Below, piece after piece: positions 27,846-40,396 of a DNA stretch of 45,267 nucleotides. The position numbers and the translations under genes are program-made. Source of the DNA: Chloroflexota bacterium (GTDB lineage Bacteria > Chloroflexota > Anaerolineae > J102); assembly GCA_024224665.1 (NCBI GenBank), contig JAAENG010000157.1, positions 1 to 45,267 of the forward strand, given 5' to 3'. How positions within the stretch are numbered: the first letter of the stretch is position 1; every line of letters starts with the position of its first letter. Below the pieces are notes generated by a model, which ran no database searches, was not told where the DNA came from, and was given only the letters and a program-made list of their open reading frames with translations.

Positions 27846-29525
27846 CTAGCCGGGCAATGGGAACTGGAGGATAAAGCGACTGCCACCCTCTGGGGGCAAA
27901 TCTATCTTGATCTGGCCCTTGTTCTGCTCTACCAAAGTTTTTACAATCGAGAGACCTAATCCTGCCCCGCTACCTGCCTGGAACCCGGGGCGTTCATGAC
28001 GATGGCGGCTGCGAGCCTTATCCACCTGATAAAAGGGATCGAAGATATGTGGCAGATCGGCCGGAGGGATACCCGGACCACTATCCTGCACGGAAATCAA
28101 GACGTTTGGTTTCATCACTTCAGCATTTACGGCAACTCGCCCACCATTCGGTGTATACTTGATGGCGTTGTCTACCAGGTTGATCAGGATGGCCTCGAGT
28201 TGGTCAGGCCAAATCTGCAGAGAGGGCAGTCTCTCGGGTAGCGTCAGGATCAGTTCGACTCCGCCCTGTTCTGCCCGTAACCGCATGTATTGGACAACAG
28301 CAATCATATGAGGACGGATGGCGATGCGCCGATCTGGTGTGCGAGTGTTGTCTGTCTGCTGGAGGCGAGTCAAATCCAGCAAGCTGTTCGCCAGGTGTCC
28401 GAGTCTGTCGGCCTCGCTATCTATCTCTCTCAAATAGCGGATGGTGATATCTGGGCGTTCGTTGCCCAGGCTGAGTAATGTTTCAGATCTTAGTTTGATA
28501 TTTGTAAGAGGTGTGCGCAATTCGTGGCTGGCATTGGCAACAAATGCTTGCTGTTGCTCCAGCATGTTGCGAACCTCATCCACCATGAAGTTGAAGGCGA
28601 AGGCAAGGGCTCCTAGTTCATCACTGCGGCTGATCTCGACCTGTTGGTTGAGATCCCCAGCTGCGGCTGCTAACGCTGCCGCCTCCAACTTGCGAAGGGG
28701 ATGTACCAGGCGACGGCCAATCCAGATGCCAAGCACCGTTGCGACCACAAGGGCTGCGATTCCGGCTCCGACAAGCCGTAATTGCACATTCCATATTGCC
28801 TCCATGATATCTTGCATGGGCTGGCTTAACTGCACTACCCCCAACAAATCACTACCTTGCTGGATGGGGGCGGCAACGAAAAGTGTATCTTCTCCGCTGA
28901 AGGGATCCGCACGGACATGGTGTTGCTCTGTCCCGGCCAGAGCGGCTATCACCTCGATCTGATCACGTTGATTGCTGATCTGTTCGATGGGATAAATGCT
29001 GTCTGCAACAACATTGCCGCGTGCGTCCAATATCGTCACTCTGGCATGTGTGTCGTCGGCGTAGCCGGAGGCGACCTGTTGCAAGCGCGGTAAGTCCGGG
29101 CCTATCTGTGTCAGGACGATGCCACCGGCCTCTTGCTCGAATCGTGTGTCTTCTTCGTCCCCCTGCCCGGATGTATGTTCGTCCTCTTCGTCCTCTTCGT
29201 CCTCTTCGTCCTCTTCGTCCGATTCATCCTCATCCTTCTCACGCTCGCGTTCATCCTCCCATTGGCGGTAAGCTACGAACTCCTCTGTATAGCCACTCAA
29301 TGGGTCTTCAAGCGTGTTGGCGGCCAGGAACGCGGCCAGTTCCAGATCGTTTTCAGCTGCACTCAGTTGGATGGTATAGGTAGTTTCGCCCACGACCACT
29401 GCCAGCAGCACTAGCACGACCACGAAAACCAGACCATAAGTCAGCATGATCCGGTATTGCAGACTACGTTGCCAGGGCCAGCGACCCGGCGGGAAGGGTG
29501 GAGGGATCGGTTGAGAGGGCGTCAC
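27846..29525 (-). CDS. Sensor histidine kinase with acidic extracytoplasmic loop
   Basis: A 559-residue kinase starting at GTG, 9 bp after the response regulator stop. Helices at about 28-48 and 250-270 enclose a sensor region whose first part (about 90-131) is a run of Asp/Glu with nine-base DNA repeats coding DEE. HAMP follows, then the HisKA box NASHELRTPL (His334), the N box NLVDNAIKYTPNGG, and G boxes DSGPGIP and GAGLGLSIVKTLVEQNKG. The acidic loop suggests direct binding of a metal cation, as acidic motifs do in PmrB- and BqsS-type sensors; this is inference. It should phosphorylate the adjacent OmpR-type regulator. Confidence 0.94.
   Translation of the reverse strand: MTPSQPIPPPFPPGRWPWQRSLQYRIMLTYGLVFVVVLVLLAVVVGETTYTIQLSAAENDLELAAFLAANTLEDPLSGYTEEFVAYRQWEDEREREKDEDESDEEDEEDEEDEEDEHTSGQGDEEDTRFEQEAGGIVLTQIGPDLPRLQQVASGYADDTHARVTILDARGNVVADSIYPIEQISNQRDQIEVIAALAGTEQHHVRADPFSGEDTLFVAAPIQQGSDLLGVVQLSQPMQDIMEAIWNVQLRLVGAGIAALVVATVLGIWIGRRLVHPLRKLEAAALAAAAGDLNQQVEISRSDELGALAFAFNFMVDEVRNMLEQQQAFVANASHELRTPLTNIKLRSETLLSLGNERPDITIRYLREIDSEADRLGHLANSLLDLTRLQQTDNTRTPDRRIAIRPHMIAVVQYMRLRAEQGGVELILTLPERLPSLQIWPDQLEAILINLVDNAIKYTPNGGRVAVNAEVMKPNVLISVQDSGPGIPPADLPHIFDPFYQVDKARSRHRHERPGFQAGSGAGLGLSIVKTLVEQNKGQIKIDLPPEGGSRFILQFPLPG
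29181..29220. repeat. 9-bp in-frame repeat in the kinase sensor loop
   Basis: GTCCTCTTC recurs 4.4 times without change and codes for Asp-Glu-Glu on the minus strand. Being a multiple of three, gain or loss of units would change only the length of the acidic stretch, which could tune ion affinity. Confidence 0.9.
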
Positions 29526-31630: not shown

Positions 31631-32629
31631 TTAATTCAGGAATTCAGCAGCGTTACTCGTCAGCAGCAGTTGCTCTTCATTTGTGAATAGGGCGCCGGCC
31701 ACATCGGGCAGCGACTGTAGATAAGCTAAACCTGACCTGCTGCCGAGAATGAGGGCGGTTCTGGCATAGATTTCGGCCAGAACAGTGCGTGACGCCACCA
31801 CACTGACAGAGAGTACGTCGCTGTGAGCTGGTTTTCCGCTACGGGGATCGATAACATGATGCATTGTCTTTCCCTCTTTTCGCCACTGTCTTTTGGCTAT
31901 CGAGGATGTTGCCAGGGCATTATTCTTAATGTTGAAACGGGCCAGGATGTGGTTGGAATCAAGGGGATGTTCGAGATCGATTTCCCAGCCCCGAGTGGAT
32001 TGCGGCGAACCGTAACCGTAGAGGTCGCCACCGGCATTGATCAGAAAGGGCCCTTCAGCGGCCAACTGGTCTGCGACACGATCGACTGTCCAACCCTTGC
32101 CCATCCCACCCAGATCCAGACCGAACCCGGGTGGTTTTCTGATCTCTAGCGTTCGGGGGTTGAGGTCGATGTCTCTGAATGTCACTCCATGAGAATGATG
32201 TAAATCGGAGCTTGTTGCACTGGCGATGTCGTCAGCCATGTCAAGGGTCATTCGTTCGAAACTGCGGTCGTAGCCCGCCAACTGGAGTGCATTGAGAATG
32301 GTGGGATCGTACAGCCCGCCCGTGGCCTGAGCGGCATAAAGCGCCATCTCTACGGCCTGAAATAAGGTATTGCTAACACGATTCGTTATGCGTTTACTAT
32401 GATTGAGCTGTGCAAGCTCACTCTGCGGATCGAAGCGGGAGAGATGATTTTCGTAATGGGCGAACGTGTTCAGCGCTTCAGTTATCGACGCGTGGTTGTG
32501 GGAGCAAACACAGATGTGGACATCGGTGTTCATGGCTCGGAAATCGTGCTGATACCACGCCCATCTCGCTGCTCCTGCCTGCTCTGATCGTTTCCTTGCC
32601 GACCTGCCGACTTTTAGATCAGTCGCCAT
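31631..32629 (-). CDS. apbE: FAD:protein FMN transferase (ApbE)
   Basis: A 332-residue ApbE protein starting at MATDLK; this ATG overlaps the stop of the previous gene by 11 bp, and the Met-rich frame further upstream is only the out-of-frame reading of that gene's His/Asp/Glu tail. Motifs of the family are all present: RAMNTDVHI, SRFDPQSELAQLN, DLGGMGKGWTVDRVAD, INAGGDLYGYG and HHVIDPRSGKPAHSDVLSV. ApbE moves FMN from FAD to a Thr of exported FMN-binding proteins. No signal peptide is obvious, although such enzymes usually act outside the membrane. I find no acceptor motif (DxxSGAT type) in any neighbouring gene. Confidence 0.93.
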   Translation of the reverse strand: MATDLKVGRSARKRSEQAGAARWAWYQHDFRAMNTDVHICVCSHNHASITEALNTFAHYENHLSRFDPQSELAQLNHSKRITNRVSNTLFQAVEMALYAAQATGGLYDPTILNALQLAGYDRSFERMTLDMADDIASATSSDLHHSHGVTFRDIDLNPRTLEIRKPPGFGLDLGGMGKGWTVDRVADQLAAEGPFLINAGGDLYGYGSPQSTRGWEIDLEHPLDSNHILARFNIKNNALATSSIAKRQWRKEGKTMHHVIDPRSGKPAHSDVLSVSVVASRTVLAEIYARTALILGSRSGLAYLQSLPDVAGALFTNEEQLLLTSNAAEFLN

Positions 32630-33320
32630 CTTCTTCATGTTCGTCATCATCATGCTCATCATGTTCATCATCATCATGTTCTTCATGTTCGTCATGTTCG
32701 TCATGTTCGTCATCATCATGTTCTTCGTGTTCGCCGTCGTGGTGGCTGCTCTGGTCGTTATCTGATCCCTGAACGGCTGTTTGCTGGCTGGCTATTTCGG
32801 CATAGGCTAATTCGAGGTCTGCCAGGGTTGTCTGTAATTGCAGGCGCAGGGCCTTATCGGTCTCACCGAAGCTCGCTTGATGAGAGATGATTTCATTCTG
32901 GAAGACGAGATCATCTTGGGCTATAGCCTCTTGTAATGCCTCTATCTCAAGTTGTAGCGATTGAGTCGATTGCGCTTTTTTGGCTGCTGGTGTGTCCAGA
33001 TCCACCAATTGATTTTGAAGCGTTTCGATCTGCGCCTGCATGGTTTTATCGAGCGTTGCCAATGCCTCCTGCCCTTGAACGATTTGTGACTGTAGTGTTA
33101 GCTCACGCTCCTTGGCCAGGGTCGCCAGCGCCTCTTGCTGAAGGTCGGGTGAGGGGATGGAACTTGGCTCACCGGGCGGTTGGGCTACCGACAGCTCTTG
33201 GGAGCTGGCCCCCTGAGACGGGGTCGCATTAAACATGGCAGACGTAGTTAAGGCTATAGCCAGGGCGACGACAATGGCGGTGCTTACGCCTGCGGCAAAA
33301 AGAGCTAGTTTCTGATTCAT
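32619..33320 (-). CDS. Membrane-anchored coiled-coil protein with His/Asp/Glu-rich tail
   Basis: A 233-residue protein: one N-terminal helix (about 7-29), a Pro-rich linker, a long coiled coil (about 60-182) with similar segments (EALATLAKERELTLQSQIVQ, EALATLDKTMQAQIETLQNQ), and a tail (192-233) made only of His, Asp and Glu apart from a few residues, with 11 His. Such a tail would bind several divalent or trivalent metal ions (Zn, Ni, Cu, Fe). I do not recognise the family. It overlaps apbE by 11 bp and follows a second coiled-coil gene by 48 bp, which suggests that the two pair with each other. Confidence 0.86.
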   Translation of the reverse strand: MNQKLALFAAGVSTAIVVALAIALTTSAMFNATPSQGASSQELSVAQPPGEPSSIPSPDLQQEALATLAKERELTLQSQIVQGQEALATLDKTMQAQIETLQNQLVDLDTPAAKKAQSTQSLQLEIEALQEAIAQDDLVFQNEIISHQASFGETDKALRLQLQTTLADLELAYAEIASQQTAVQGSDNDQSSHHDGEHEEHDDDEHDEHDEHEEHDDDEHDEHDDDEHEEDGD

Positions 33321-35017: not shown

Positions 35018-35524
35018 TTATCCGCTGCCACTATCTATAGGATATCCTGCGTTTTCCCAAGCTCGCAGACCGCCCAAAATCGCTTTTGCGTTTGTGTATC
35101 CATTGTCGAGCAAGATTTGCGCCGCACCGGCGCTGGATTCTTCGTTCGGTCACGTACAGTAGAGAAGTATCTCGGTTTCGAGCGGCAGCTCGCTGTAGCG
35201 ATCTTCGAACTCGCCAGGAGGGATGACCACGGCGCCGGGGATATGGCCTGCTTCGTATTGTTCGACATAACGCACATCCACGATGACTGCCGCTCCGTCG
35301 TCAAAGCTGGCTTTGGTGTCTTGTATAGAAATGCGAGGCACGGCAGGATAAGGGAGATTTTTATCAACGACAAGGGTCGCTGGCTGACCTACTGCCGGAG
35401 TTGGCTCATCATTTCGAGGGATCAGCACCAACGCTGCCACGAGTAACAGCAGTGCTCCCCCCGCGATGATGAGAATCCAGGGGTTGATGGGAAAAGGTCG
35501 GTTATCGTTCTTGTCTGCAGTCAT
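35018..35524 (-). CDS. Membrane-anchored rhodanese with in-frame TGA in the active-site loop (candidate selenoprotein)
   Basis: Read through one TGA the gene gives 168 residues: an N-terminal helix (WILIIAGGALLLLVAALVLI) and a rhodanese domain (about 63-165). The first half shows AAVIVDVRYVEQYEAGHIPG. The active-site strand reads EILLYCT, then TGA at codon 125 (35150-35152), then PNEESSAGAAQILLDNG, AILGGLRAWENAGYP and a TAA at 35018. In related rhodaneses I recall YCxCPNE here, so the TGA stands where a Cys is expected, two residues after Cys123. The frame after the TGA is intact for 43 codons with no further stop or shift. A hairpin with loop GGUGC begins 16 nt after the TGA. Selenocysteine insertion fits; a recent nonsense mutation or sequencing error is the alternative. 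It lies about 200 bp downstream of acr3. Confidence 0.72.
35119..35133 (-). promoter_or_regulatory. SECIS-like hairpin after the in-frame TGA
   Basis: On the transcript GCGCC and GGCGC form a 5-bp stem with a GGUGC loop; the loop starts 21 nt after the UGA. Bacterial SECIS elements place a short stem with a G at the first or second loop position about 16-37 nt after UGA, and the E. coli fdhF loop also begins GGU. AAGA and UCUU further out could add a lower stem across an internal loop. A 5-bp GC stem can arise by chance. Confidence 0.5.
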
Positions 35525-35725: not shown

Positions 35726-36880
35726 CTACTTCATTAGTTTTTCTGACGGAGGGCAGGCTTCTGCGGCCGCACCAATCGTGGCTGCAGAGACAGGCTGCAA
35801 TTCGTGTGCAAAATAGCGTCGCTGGAAAAACAAGGCGACATTCACCATAAGGATCATCACCGGCACTTCGATCAAGGGGCCGATCACGGCGGCGAAGGCC
35901 ACACCCGAACCGATACCGAATACCGCCACTGCTACGGCGATGGCCAACTCGAAATTATTGCTGGCCGCGGTGAATGCCAACGTTGTAGTTTTGGAGTAAT
36001 CGGCGCCAATGCGTTTTCCCATCCAGAAACTCACTAGGAACATGATCACAAAATATAGGGTGAGGGGGATGGCAATAACCACGACATCTTGCGGTATCTG
36101 CACGATCAGTTCCCCTTTGAGGCTGAACATCACCAAGATGGTGAATAGCAACGCCACCAAGGTGATGGGGCTGATGCGGGGGATGAACTTGGTCTCGTAC
36201 CACTGGCGATCTTTGACCCGTAGCAGGATGAAACGGGTGAGAAAACCGGCGATCATGGGAATGCCGAGGAAGATGAAGACGGTCTTGGCCAGTTCGCCGA
36301 CACTGATATCAACCGTCACACCGGATCCCCGCAGACCAAAAACATCGGGCAGCAAGGTGATAAATAGGTAGGCATAGACGCTGTAAAAGAGCACCTGGAA
36401 GACGCTGTTGAAAGCCACCAGACCGGCCGCGTACTCGGTGTCGCCAGAGGCCAGTTCGTTCCAGACGATGACCATGGCAATGCAACGAGCCAGCCCGATG
36501 AGAATGAGTCCAACCATATACTGCGGGTAATTGTGAAGAAATAGAATCGCCAGGATAAACATGAGGATGGGGCCGACGATCCAGTTTTGAACGAGCGAGA
36601 GCCCTAATACCCTGGTGTTGCGGAACACTTCTGGCAGGCGCTCGTACTTGACCTTGGCAAAGGGTGGATACATCATCAAGATCAAGCCGATGGCGATGGG
36701 GATGTTGGTGGTCCCGACCTGGAAGCGATTTATGAAGGGCTCGACACCGGGAATGAGGTAGCCAAGAGCGACGCCAATGGCCATGGCCAGGAATATCCAC
36801 AGCGTCAGATAACGGTCCAGGGTGGAAAGGCTTTTATTGGGTCTGCGTTCCTGGGGCACGGTTGTTGATAGTTGTGTCAT
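35726..36880 (-). CDS. acr3: Acr3-type arsenite permease
   Basis: A 384-residue permease with ten predicted helices. The start is ATG 36880 with AGAGGCAG upstream; 28 further codons are open but unlikely to be used. It has the Acr3 signature: [34 protein letters not shown], the [11 protein letters not shown] helix with the conserved Cys133, and [20 protein letters not shown]. It exports arsenite or antimonite using the membrane potential. No ArsR, ArsC or ArsM gene is next to it; the downstream rhodanese and the divergent cytochrome share its control region. Confidence 0.94.
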
Positions 36881-37318
36881 GATCTGCCTCTGATTTCTTC
36901 TGTCGCTATCTCCAGCGCAATGGACTGGAGCGCATTGTGCAACTATAGTTTCGCGCCACTGCACTCAGAAAACCATGATTTACATCATATGTGTACATAT
37001 ATTCTCATGTTTGTTGGACCCTAGCGGGACTTTCGCAAAGAGCGACCTATATAAGAAGGATTTATTATTAATCTTTTGCTAATGTGATATAAATCATATT
37101 CAGATTCTACTCATCATGCTATCATGTGCTATGTGTTTGCTTAATCTTCTGTTTATTGGTGTATTGTCGCACAATAAGATGTATTTGATGCACCGATCCA
37201 TAGTGGGCGATCAGCAGCCTAGGGAGGCGATGCCATTTGATCATACCGTAGATAAATTTTCTCTATCCAAAACTTTCGATCGCTACGTTGAGAGACGTAG
37301 CCTAGAGGAGGAATTACC
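36881..37318. promoter_or_regulatory. Divergent control region with two TGAT-N4-ATCA boxes
   Basis: Two FNR/CRP-type dyads are visible: TGAT-TTAC-ATCA at 36976-36987 and TGAT-ATAA-ATCA at 37085-37096. The second is centred 41.5 bp upstream of the start expected from TATCAT at 37120-37125, the class II activator spacing, and would drive the cytochrome. For acr3, TATAGT at 36947-36942 (minus) puts the first box near -46.5. A further dyad ATATGT-GT-ACATAT overlaps it at 36987-37000 and could bind another regulator such as ArsR. The cytochrome leader from 37132 to 37318 is about 187 nt with no other clear structure. Confidence 0.68.
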
Positions 37319-40300
37319 ATGCGAAGACGCATACCTATGACCCTATTGGTCCTCCTGACCCTGTCTCTGGTTCTTGTTCTCAGCTCAGCATCATGGGCCG
37401 GTACCTACACCGACGGCCCCGATTCTGTGGATCAGGGCAAACCAGGTTATCTTGGATCTGATACCTGTAAAGCATGCCATAACGACGAGCACACCACCCT
37501 ACAAGAGACTTTGCATCCCTGGAAAGTACGACCCAAGGCAGAAGCTAATATTATCGGCGACTGGCCGGTCGAATGGGAAGGCGAGACTTACACGCTTGAC
37601 CAGGTTGATTGGGTCATCGGCGCTCATCCCAAGTGGAAACAGCGCTATGTCGATATCCAGGAAGATGGTTTCTGGAAGATACTGCCGTTCCAGTGGAACG
37701 TGGAAACAGGAGCGCTAGCGGCTTATAGCCACGCTGGCGACTACCGGCGTGATTGTGCCGGTTGCCACACAACTGGTCTTGACGTAGATCAGTTCGGTGT
37801 CACAGAGATCCCCTGGAGCGAACCAGGTGTCACCTGTGAGTCATGTCACGGCCCGGGCGACAATCACATCGCCAATATAGGCAAGCCTCCTGGAGAGCGT
37901 GGCATCTATGCAGAATCCGATCCCGAAGTCTGCGGTTCCTGTCACACCCGCGGCAAGACCAAAGATGGCCTGTACAGTTGGCCTGAAGGTTATGTGCCCG
38001 GCGGCGATGTCCACCTGGACGAGATTTGGGATGTCACTGATGCTACCAAGAGTTGGTGGTTCGACAATCCGGAAGATGAGAATGACCCCTTCCACGCCAA
38101 GCAGCACCGCGAGCAATATCCCGAGTGGGAAGCATCAGCGCACAGTACCGCGCAGATATCCATTCAGGAAAGCGGTCACGGTTCTGAATCCTGTCTGGAA
38201 TGCCATTCCGACGATTACCGCCGCGACCCCGAGAACGTCACGGTGGAGACAGCAGAATTCGGCATCACCTGCCAGACCTGTCATCTCAACCATGAACCAG
38301 GTGAGATCGGCAACCAATTGGTCAAGGACGCCTACGAACTCTGTGTCGAATGCCATAACGGCCACCTGGAAGGCGAGAAGTTCGAGCCAGGTTCCAACAT
38401 CCACCATCCCATGCAGGAGATGTTCGAAGGCATCGGTTTCCCCGGTATCGACGACATCCCCTCACCGCACTTCACATCGGATGGCGGCGCAACCTGCAAG
38501 AGTTGCCACATGGCGGGAACGGCTAAGTCAGCCATACCTGGTGACATCTCCAGTCACCGCTTCACCGTCGCCATGCCCGGTGATGTGAAGGAAGGAGAAC
38601 CAGATTCTTGTACAGGCTGCCATACTGATGCCAGTAAAGAGAATCTACAGAATATCATCGATAGCCGCCATGACGAGATCATGGGTGCTCTGGCCGACCT
38701 GAATGCCTTGGCCATGGACAATGGCTGCCCCGATCTGAGCACAGGCCCGGCCGGTGAATCAGATGCCTGTAAGCTGGCCTATTCCGGCTACACCATGGTA
38801 AACGCCGAGGGCAGTTACGGCATGCACAACTATCTCTATGCTAAGGCTGTCCTTAGGGCCAGCACAGAGGCATTTGACGTGCCGGCCTACGATCTACCCT
38901 ATGTCGGCTCAGCGACCTGTTCAGCCTGTCATAGCGACAAATACGACAGTAATCTCGAGACGCTGCATCCCTGGAAAGTACGGCCCAAGGCAGAAGCCGA
39001 TGTAATCGGCGACTGGCCGGTAGAATGGGAGGGTACCACTTACACCCTCGACGACGTCGATTGGGTGATCGGCGCCCATCCCAAGTGGAAACAACGCTAC
39101 ATCAGTATCCAGGAAGATGGTTTCTGGAAGATCTTGCCATTCCAGTGGAACGTGGTGACCGGGGAGGCCTCGGCTTACAGCCACGCCGGCGATTACCGCC
39201 GCGACTGTTCGGGTTGCCACACCACCGGTGTTGATGTAGATCTGTTCGGTGTGACAGAGATACCGTGGAATGAACCAGGTGTCACCTGTGAGTCATGCCA
39301 CGGTCCAGGTCAGGACCACGTCCTCAGCACAGACAAGGAGAACGATCCACAGATCTACACCTCCCTTGATTCCGAATCTTGTGGCGCCTGCCATAATCGC
39401 GGCAAGACGAAGGATGGTGAGTACAGCTGGCCTGAAGGCTACGTGCCCGGAGGCGACGTCCACCTGGACGAGATTTGGGATGTGACTGACGCCACCAAGA
39501 GTTGGTGGTACGACAACCCCGATGATCCGGAAGATCCAGGGCACGCCAAGCAGCATCGCCAGCAATATCCCGAATGGGAACGCAGCGCTCATCACGAAGC
39601 ATTGGCCAGTATCCAGGATAGTGGCCACGGCCAAGATTTCTGCCTGGGATGCCATTCCGAGGACTATCGTCGCGATATGGAAAATGTGACCGTGGAGACG
39701 GCCGAGCACACCATCGAGTGTGTCACCTGTCACGCCTCACACGACACGGGCGAAGAGGGTACATCGCAACTCTTGATGGGCCAGTACGATCTCTGCGTGC
39801 AGTGTCATACCGGCACCTCTGGCGGACCCATCGAACCTGGTGACTCTGTCCATCAGCCCATGCAAGAGATGTACGAAGGCACCAGCATGCCCGGCATTGA
39901 GGATAACCCCAGTAAACACTTCCAAACGAGTGATGAGGAAGGTGGCGGTCCTGTCTGTTCAAGTTGTCACTTCATGCGGACTGGAAAGAGTTCAACCTGG
40001 TTCAGCTGGGAAAATGGCAACATTATGAAGGGTGACATCGCCAGCCATCTCTTGGTTCCGGTTATGCCAGGCGATGCCGATGAGGCACAACCAGATGCTT
40101 GCAGTACATGTCATGATTGGCCCAAGGCTACCGGTCAAACCATCATCGACGGTATTCAGACCACTACACAAGCGGATCTTGATGAATTGTCTGAATGGTT
40201 GCAAAAGCTCAGTGGTGTGGATAACGACGATGTTGATTACGCCCACACAGCTCTTAGCTTTGTCGATAGCGATGGCAGTGTCGGAATCCACAACCCAGCT

Positions 40301-40396
40301 TACGCTGGAGAGATCCTGGATGCAGGCATAGACAGGGTGAATGATTACACCTTCGTGTATATGCCCGTCTTGCTCATGCCTCTACCCAAACCCTAA
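37319..40396 (+). CDS. Secreted 18-haem cytochrome c with internal duplication
   Basis: A 1025-residue protein with signal peptide (LLVLLTLSLVLVLSSASWA) and a strong AGAGGAGG ribosome site. I count 18 CxxCH motifs in two sets of nine: CKACH (Cys50), CAGCH, CESCH, CGSCH, CLECH, CQTCH, CVECH, CKSCH, CTGCH, and from Cys534 CSACH, CSGCH, CESCH, CGACH, CLGCH, CVTCH, CVQCH, CSSCH, CSTCH. The halves repeat at 484 residues with long identical stretches (LHPWKVRPKAEA, WVIGAHPKWKQRY, YSWPEGYVPGGDVHLDEIWD). Each ends in a helical part resembling NrfA/c554-type cytochromes (DGSVGIHNPAYAGEIL). There is no membrane anchor. It probably carries electrons at the cell surface; a reductase role is possible but no catalytic haem site is evident. 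Confidence 0.95.
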   Translation: MRRRIPMTLLVLLTLSLVLVLSSASWAGTYTDGPDSVDQGKPGYLGSDTCKACHNDEHTTLQETLHPWKVRPKAEANIIGDWPVEWEGETYTLDQVDWVIGAHPKWKQRYVDIQEDGFWKILPFQWNVETGALAAYSHAGDYRRDCAGCHTTGLDVDQFGVTEIPWSEPGVTCESCHGPGDNHIANIGKPPGERGIYAESDPEVCGSCHTRGKTKDGLYSWPEGYVPGGDVHLDEIWDVTDATKSWWFDNPEDENDPFHAKQHREQYPEWEASAHSTAQISIQESGHGSESCLECHSDDYRRDPENVTVETAEFGITCQTCHLNHEPGEIGNQLVKDAYELCVECHNGHLEGEKFEPGSNIHHPMQEMFEGIGFPGIDDIPSPHFTSDGGATCKSCHMAGTAKSAIPGDISSHRFTVAMPGDVKEGEPDSCTGCHTDASKENLQNIIDSRHDEIMGALADLNALAMDNGCPDLSTGPAGESDACKLAYSGYTMVNAEGSYGMHNYLYAKAVLRASTEAFDVPAYDLPYVGSATCSACHSDKYDSNLETLHPWKVRPKAEADVIGDWPVEWEGTTYTLDDVDWVIGAHPKWKQRYISIQEDGFWKILPFQWNVVTGEASAYSHAGDYRRDCSGCHTTGVDVDLFGVTEIPWNEPGVTCESCHGPGQDHVLSTDKENDPQIYTSLDSESCGACHNRGKTKDGEYSWPEGYVPGGDVHLDEIWDVTDATKSWWYDNPDDPEDPGHAKQHRQQYPEWERSAHHEALASIQDSGHGQDFCLGCHSEDYRRDMENVTVETAEHTIECVTCHASHDTGEEGTSQLLMGQYDLCVQCHTGTSGGPIEPGDSVHQPMQEMYEGTSMPGIEDNPSKHFQTSDEEGGGPVCSSCHFMRTGKSSTWFSWENGNIMKGDIASHLLVPVMPGDADEAQPDACSTCHDWPKATGQTIIDGIQTTTQADLDELSEWLQKLSGVDNDDVDYAHTALSFVDSDGSVGIHNPAYAGEILDAGIDRVNDYTFVYMPVLLMPLPKP

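Follow-up and report, generated by a model that had tools for sequence, protein, structure and literature searches.

A predicted selenocysteine-containing rhodanese in a Chloroflexota genome and its relatives in at least seven phyla

A rhodanese gene with an in-frame TGA

A rhodanese gene of a Chloroflexota bacterium, located on the minus strand of the window (the whole 45,267-nt stretch of DNA analyzed here), contains a TGA codon within its active-site loop. The question raised by this locus is whether the codon ends the gene, reflects a mutation or an error, or encodes an amino acid, which the initial annotation had proposed to be selenocysteine (Sec). The features of the gene that bear on this question are as follows.

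35018..35524, minus strand: predicted selenocysteine-containing rhodanese gene (PF00581 match and orthologues with TGA at the same codon)
35426..35482, minus strand: predicted transmembrane helix, residues 15 to 33 (AlphaFold2 model and hydropathy)
35051..35323, minus strand: rhodanese domain, residues 68 to 158 (Pfam PF00581; Foldseek matches to solved rhodaneses)
35156..35158, minus strand: codon for Cys123, at the rhodanese catalytic Cys position (GlpE-type alignment; end of strand 118 to 122 in the model)
35150..35152, minus strand: in-frame TGA, codon 125, predicted to be read as selenocysteine (same column in homologues)
35119..35133, minus strand: putative bacterial SECIS (bSECIS) hairpin, GCGCC-GGUGC-GGCGC (conservation, covariation, and published model)

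The frame runs from an ATG at 35524 to a TAA at 35020 to 35018 and codes for 168 amino acids if the TGA is read through. The active-site region of the read-through product is ILLYCTUPNEESSAGAAQ, with the TGA two codons past the catalytic Cys. In a Pfam scan of the read-through protein, PF00581 spanned the TGA with a score of 60 bits (cut-off, 22.2). Both the placement of codon 125 inside the active-site loop and the continuation of the frame, with a conserved second half, to a TAA were thus confirmed, and the domain is conserved to its normal end. The terminator that had been described after the TAA is weak, consisting of a hairpin at about 34985 to 34962 with a poor T-run that was not listed by the terminator scan. 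The window gave no match in an Rfam scan at gathering thresholds and none with ARAGORN. Low-complexity stretches elsewhere in the window included, at 32619 to 32719, Met/Asn repeats with which an ApbE-family gene begins and which overlap the His/Asp/Glu repeats of the next gene, and, at about 29150 to 29230, a long Asp/Glu run within a sensor kinase.

Homologues with TGA at the same codon

In a protein search of 396 genomes of the same class, 339 had matches. An in-frame TGA was present in nearly every one of the best 60 or so, and stop-free matches started only at about 31 to 45% identity. TGA was found at the same column in 51 distinct loci of the class, within the motif CTU or CAU and, in four loci, UTU; when the first 30 of these loci were aligned, 29 had C-T-U at this column and the thirtieth had UTU. 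Across phyla, 84,980 genomes were searched with a degenerate pattern in which the amino acids were fixed and most synonymous bases were left free. This search recovered at least 119 loci, nearly all of them rhodaneses, from no fewer than seven phyla. The active-site motif was present in 118 of the 119 matches listed, and 110 passed a full-domain filter. Chloroflexota (54 loci), Acidobacteriota (29), and Myxococcota (11) were represented among the matches listed, as were Gemmatimonadota, Nitrospirota, Pseudomonadota, Thermomicrobiota, and Rokuibacteriota.

In total, TGA was present at the codon corresponding to codon 125 in about 150 distinct homologous loci among the matches listed. These included loci on the complete chromosomes CP070639.1 and CP070735.1 and three copies (L068, L069, and L070) in a genome assembled as a single contig (G027). 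Upstream of one of these copies, L069, lies an ArsR-type gene, and downstream lies a second lipoprotein-like gene that resembles the tandem rhodanese family. The related rhodaneses with CxC in the loop that the initial annotation had mentioned were nearly absent from the class: the Cys version of the motif was found in 2 of 396 genomes, both times outside the Ser-Ala-Arg context and probably by chance, and one more distant rhodanese (L084) carried CAC. A plasmid collection yielded only distant rhodaneses (<60% identity).

A conserved hairpin downstream of the TGA

Exactly 16 nt past the TGA, a hairpin begins that has a stem of 5 bp, a GGUGC loop, and a folding energy of −11 kcal/mol, with its apical loop (35128 to 35124) 21 nt past the UGA. 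Published constraints on bSECIS elements (PMC13188914, section 5) specify a loop of 3 to 9 nt with G in the first two positions, a stem of 4 to 16 bp, a distance of 16 to 37 nt from the UGA, and a minimum free energy of at most −7.5, and the window hairpin lies within all four. Folding energy alone was unexceptional (z of −0.9 to −1.8); as this single-sequence value was not significant, it was not counted as evidence, and it is only because of conservation that the hairpin stands far beyond chance.

Codons +6 to +10 past the TGA encode Ser-Ala-Arg/Gly-Ala-Ala as AGC GCC CGT/GGT GCG GCG with few exceptions. Normalized codon entropy was 0.06 to 0.30 at these positions, against mostly 0.4 to 1.0 at other conserved residues. 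Among the matches listed in the cross-phylum set, 108 of 110 sequences retained GCC, and 107 retained GCG. Stem positions were paired in 98.8% of cases, with double changes in three of the five pairs; none of 500 shuffles reached so high a value, and slid controls gave 20 to 60%. Columns 21 and 33 covaried (C-G, 129; T-A, 11; A-T, 1; others rare), with a Fisher P value of 4e-11 for their co-change (no correction for kinship). The window scored 72.6 bits (E value, 7e-15), and non-Sec rhodaneses at most 19.8 bits, with a covariance model that was trained without the window and that also contains coding signal. These sequence comparisons indicate that the hairpin in the +6 to +10 region is under selection. 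The GGUGC-loop hairpin noted in the initial annotation is therefore real (35133 to 35119), and its assignment as a bacterial SECIS in the expected place agrees with both the published model and the conservation with covariation.

Selenocysteine-decoding genes

The draft genome is a MAG of 628 contigs, estimated at 91.7% completeness and 6.4% contamination. It contains tRNA-Sec (71.6 bits, UCA anticodon; ARAGORN) and SelA (461 bits). The contigs carrying them matched the window in tetranucleotide composition (0.93 and 0.90) more closely than did the loci of relatives (0.71 to 0.78). The selA gene of the draft (L048:6028-7404, G000:C70) adjoins two genes resembling those for the two aconitase X subunits (small and large), not selB.

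Neither selB nor selD was found in the 628-contig draft by profile, nor was selB found with a relative's protein. The best match to TIGR00475 (184 bits, 406 amino acids, among tRNA genes) looks like EF-Tu and was rejected as SelB, and a SelD-like match of 24.6 bits, in a 354-amino-acid gene beside a hypD-like gene, was read as HypE. Among relatives of the same family, selB was present in all six tested (G260, G250, G286, G050, G210, and G199), as was a TGA-containing selD (G260, G250, G286, G050, G210, and G103). The gene that adjoins selB in relatives was also not found in the draft, by a search method for which an empty answer proves little; its absence makes a gap in the assembly the likely explanation of the missing selB and selD. 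The machinery expected for a selenoprotein was thus recovered in part: tRNA-Sec and SelA in the draft itself, and selB and selD in its close relatives.

More widely, selB scored over its cut-off in 27 of 30 genomes with a TGA-containing rhodanese. Its co-occurrence with the TGA gene was modest (27 of 30 versus 25 of 37; P = 0.04), since Sec decoding is widespread in this class. SelD was present in 19 of the 20 TGA-rhodanese genomes searched, each time with a TGA of its own. TGA-containing SelD loci include L250 to L255 and those of 13 further genomes.

Alternative readings of the TGA codon

As the sequence comes from one draft MAG, with contamination at 6.4%, the TGA could be taken for a nonsense mutation or an error of sequencing, and the gene for a pseudogene of an ordinary Cys rhodanese. 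The same codon recurs, however, in about 150 distinct loci among the matches listed, from at least seven phyla and independent assemblies, among them the two complete chromosomes and the three copies in a single-contig genome; conservation also runs to the normal domain end, and the hairpin is under selection. We regard the probability of such a defect as negligible. A true stop, giving a functional product of 124 residues that ends in Cys-Thr and leaving the rest as a remnant or a separate product, is likewise extremely improbable: UGA is also an ordinary stop in this genome, but every locus has a conserved C-terminal half past the TGA, including the post-loop helix and the GG-W motif, and a product ending at the TGA would lack a large share of the rhodanese fold.

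Recoding of UGA to amino acids other than Sec is known in other lineages, and the codon might be read here as Trp (code 4) or as Cys by a near-cognate or special tRNA. Of 46 large ORFs in the contigs of this genome, 19 terminate at TGA, which is thus an ordinary stop, so the code is not reassigned. Furthermore, when any TGN was allowed at the first motif position, the 110 sequences among the matches listed had Cys in 102 cases, TGA in 8, and Trp in none, and a SECIS, tRNA-Sec, and SelA are present. A different amino acid at this codon is very unlikely. Selenocysteine at UGA125, and with it the status of the gene as a selenoprotein, is by contrast strongly favored by the sequence evidence, namely, TGA at the same codon in about 150 homologues, a covarying bSECIS, tRNA-Sec and SelA in the genome, and SelB and a Sec-containing SelD in close relatives; the central proposal of the initial annotation is upheld. 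The hairpin 21 nt downstream would direct ribosomes at UGA125 to insert selenocysteine via tRNA-Sec and SelB.

UxU forms and breadth of the family

In 11 of the 152 distinct loci among the matches listed, TGA was present at both positions of the motif (UxU), with TGA replacing the codon that corresponds to Cys123.

U-T-U loci: L046 (G013), L104 (G145), L118 (G007), L120 (G251), L128, L143, L160, L174, L191, L192, and L209

These loci are scattered over the tree and belong to Chloroflexota, Nitrospirota, and Myxococcota; one of them (L174) is located on the complete chromosome CP070639.1. On a tree built from 110 columns, nine changes were needed to account for UxU, at least three of them forced by well-supported branches, which suggests that UxU probably arose repeatedly. 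UxU is not among the motifs in a 2026 review catalogue, within literature coverage made up mostly of papers outside subscription.

Some members differ in architecture. In L195 (bacterium HR26), a CTU rhodanese is fused to the C terminus of a protein resembling potassium/proton antiporters; L196, L184, L220, L231, and L234 are similarly long and may also be fusions. In about 16 members, including L021, L026, L027, L030, L042, and L112, the membrane helix is preceded by two zinc-ribbon-like CxxC pairs.

It is likely that the window gene is a branch of a large family of mainly membrane-anchored and near-exclusively Sec-containing rhodaneses, for the most part unannotated, spread over at least seven phyla with one near-identical SECIS, and that UxU arose within this family by repeated replacement of the catalytic Cys by Sec. 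Because an internal TGA is ordinarily taken to terminate a gene, most annotations probably truncate or omit the members of this predicted cell-surface selenoprotein family, which occurs in bacteria of soil, sediment, and reactors, among them Anaerolineae and Acidobacteriota. With a hairpin that is nearly identical in its letters across phyla, the family offers a good substrate for the study of SelB recognition, and the repeated change from CxU to UxU is a natural experiment on the contribution of a second selenium to a redox loop.

Predicted fold, location, and chemistry

An AlphaFold2 model of the protein (mean pLDDT, 88) contained a helix at residues 15 to 33, a flexible linker, and a rhodanese domain, with the transmembrane helix and the domain at pLDDT values of 95 to 98. 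Foldseek matched the model to solved rhodaneses (E value of 4e-10 to 3tp9). Cys123 follows the strand at residues 118 to 122, and Sec125 precedes the helix at residues 126 to 140. Among the matches listed, 153 family proteins mostly began with a transmembrane helix or a lipoprotein signal according to a simple hydropathy script. An N-terminus-inside orientation was favored 86 to 13, and positive charges preceded the helix in 86 of 104 transmembrane cases, suggesting an extracytoplasmic position for the domain. As modeled, the window protein is probably a membrane-anchored, extracytoplasmic rhodanese.

The active loop, C-T-U-P-N-E-E, differs from the six-residue CRxGx-type loop of GlpE-like sulfurtransferases, and its Cys is separated from the GG motif by two more residues than in rhodaneses of the GlpE type. 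Because of this longer loop, ordinary thiosulfate sulfurtransferase activity may be absent. From fold and motif, the Cys-Thr-Sec loop is probably a selenenyl-sulfide redox or sulfur-transfer site, with Cys and Sec predicted to act as a redox pair on sulfane sulfur or disulfides; a selenenyl-sulfide bond between Cys123 and Sec125, as had been suggested for this pair, is plausible. The product would present its rhodanese domain on one N-terminal helix, most likely at the outer face of the cytoplasmic membrane. Cys123 would take up sulfane sulfur or form a mixed disulfide, Sec125 would resolve this intermediate by forming a selenenyl-sulfide, and the pair would then be recycled by an external thiol or a thioredoxin-like reductant. 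Taken as a whole, this mechanism of persulfide or thiol redox handling at the cell surface has about an even chance of being correct.

Gene neighborhood and arsenic

A neighboring gene lies 201 nt upstream of the rhodanese gene on the same strand.

35726..36964, minus strand: ACR3-family arsenite efflux transporter (TIGR00832, 453.7 bits against a cut-off of 282.8)

On the other strand beside it is a gene for a multihaem cytochrome of 1,025 residues (37319 to 40396) with two similar halves, indicating an internal duplication.

The initial annotation had suggested that Sec in a membrane rhodanese beside an arsenite permease would be a new setting. The arrangement is present here but was found in only 1 of 152 loci among the matches listed, that of the window, and ACR3 was rejected as a conserved partner. 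The same 152 loci included neighbors encoding ArsR-type regulators (14 loci) and heavy-metal P-type ATPases (18 loci), as well as unrelated ones such as M3 peptidases (23 loci) and SCO1-type proteins (8 loci). Metal-type genes were nearby in 24 of 152 loci among the matches listed versus 2 of 44 control loci (P = 0.07). As the neighbors are mixed, a link of the Sec rhodanese family to metals or metalloids is suggestive at best. A specific role in arsenic resistance, with the rhodanese as partner of the adjacent ACR3, would fit the short distance and shared strand and the ArsR-type or P-type ATPase genes at some family loci; against the single occurrence of ACR3, the P value for metal-type genes, and the many loci with unrelated neighbors, it is unlikely.

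Comparison with known rhodaneses and selenoproteins

The window protein shares with single-domain rhodaneses of the GlpE/PspE type the rhodanese fold, a catalytic Cys located where a strand ends, and the GG-W motif. It differs from them in a loop that is about two residues longer and unlike CRxGxR, in the predicted Sec, and in the membrane anchor. YgaP of Escherichia coli also carries a rhodanese domain on a membrane anchor, and its solved domain was matched by Foldseek; it contains Cys only, and its anchor is arranged differently. TsoB (NF045694) is likewise a selenoprotein with a rhodanese domain. The window protein matched it weakly (23.5 bits, far from the cut-off of 805 bits), and TsoB, unlike the window protein, has a UxxxxU motif and resembles a rhodanese/DsbD fusion.

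The closest known relative is described by NF041203 (rhodanese_LYCAU, "rhodanese-related (seleno)protein"), in which Sec also lies two residues past the catalytic Cys; the corresponding CxU motif in the window protein is Cys123-Thr-Sec125. Among rhodanese models, NF041203 gave the best match to the window protein, as it did to each of the 20 further TGA-containing rhodaneses scanned. The window protein scored 83.4 bits, below the cut-off of 115, and is therefore placed outside this curated equivalog; it also has CTU instead of CAU and an N-terminal membrane anchor. Nineteen of the 20 sampled TGA rhodaneses likewise fell below the cut-off, and only L192 (122.8 bits, UTU) passed it.

CxU rhodanese selenoproteins were predicted in 2005 (Zhang and Gladyshev, cited in PMC9312934, which gives COG0607 form 2 as CxU), and a "rhodanese-like form 3, CxU" is catalogued in PMC13188914. 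The window protein belongs to this kind and is not new in principle, and the novelty that the initial annotation had seen in a Sec-containing membrane rhodanese is reduced accordingly, as far as these sources extend. What is new lies in the details: the breadth of the family, the near-identical hairpin across phyla, and the 11 double-Sec UxU forms among the matches listed.
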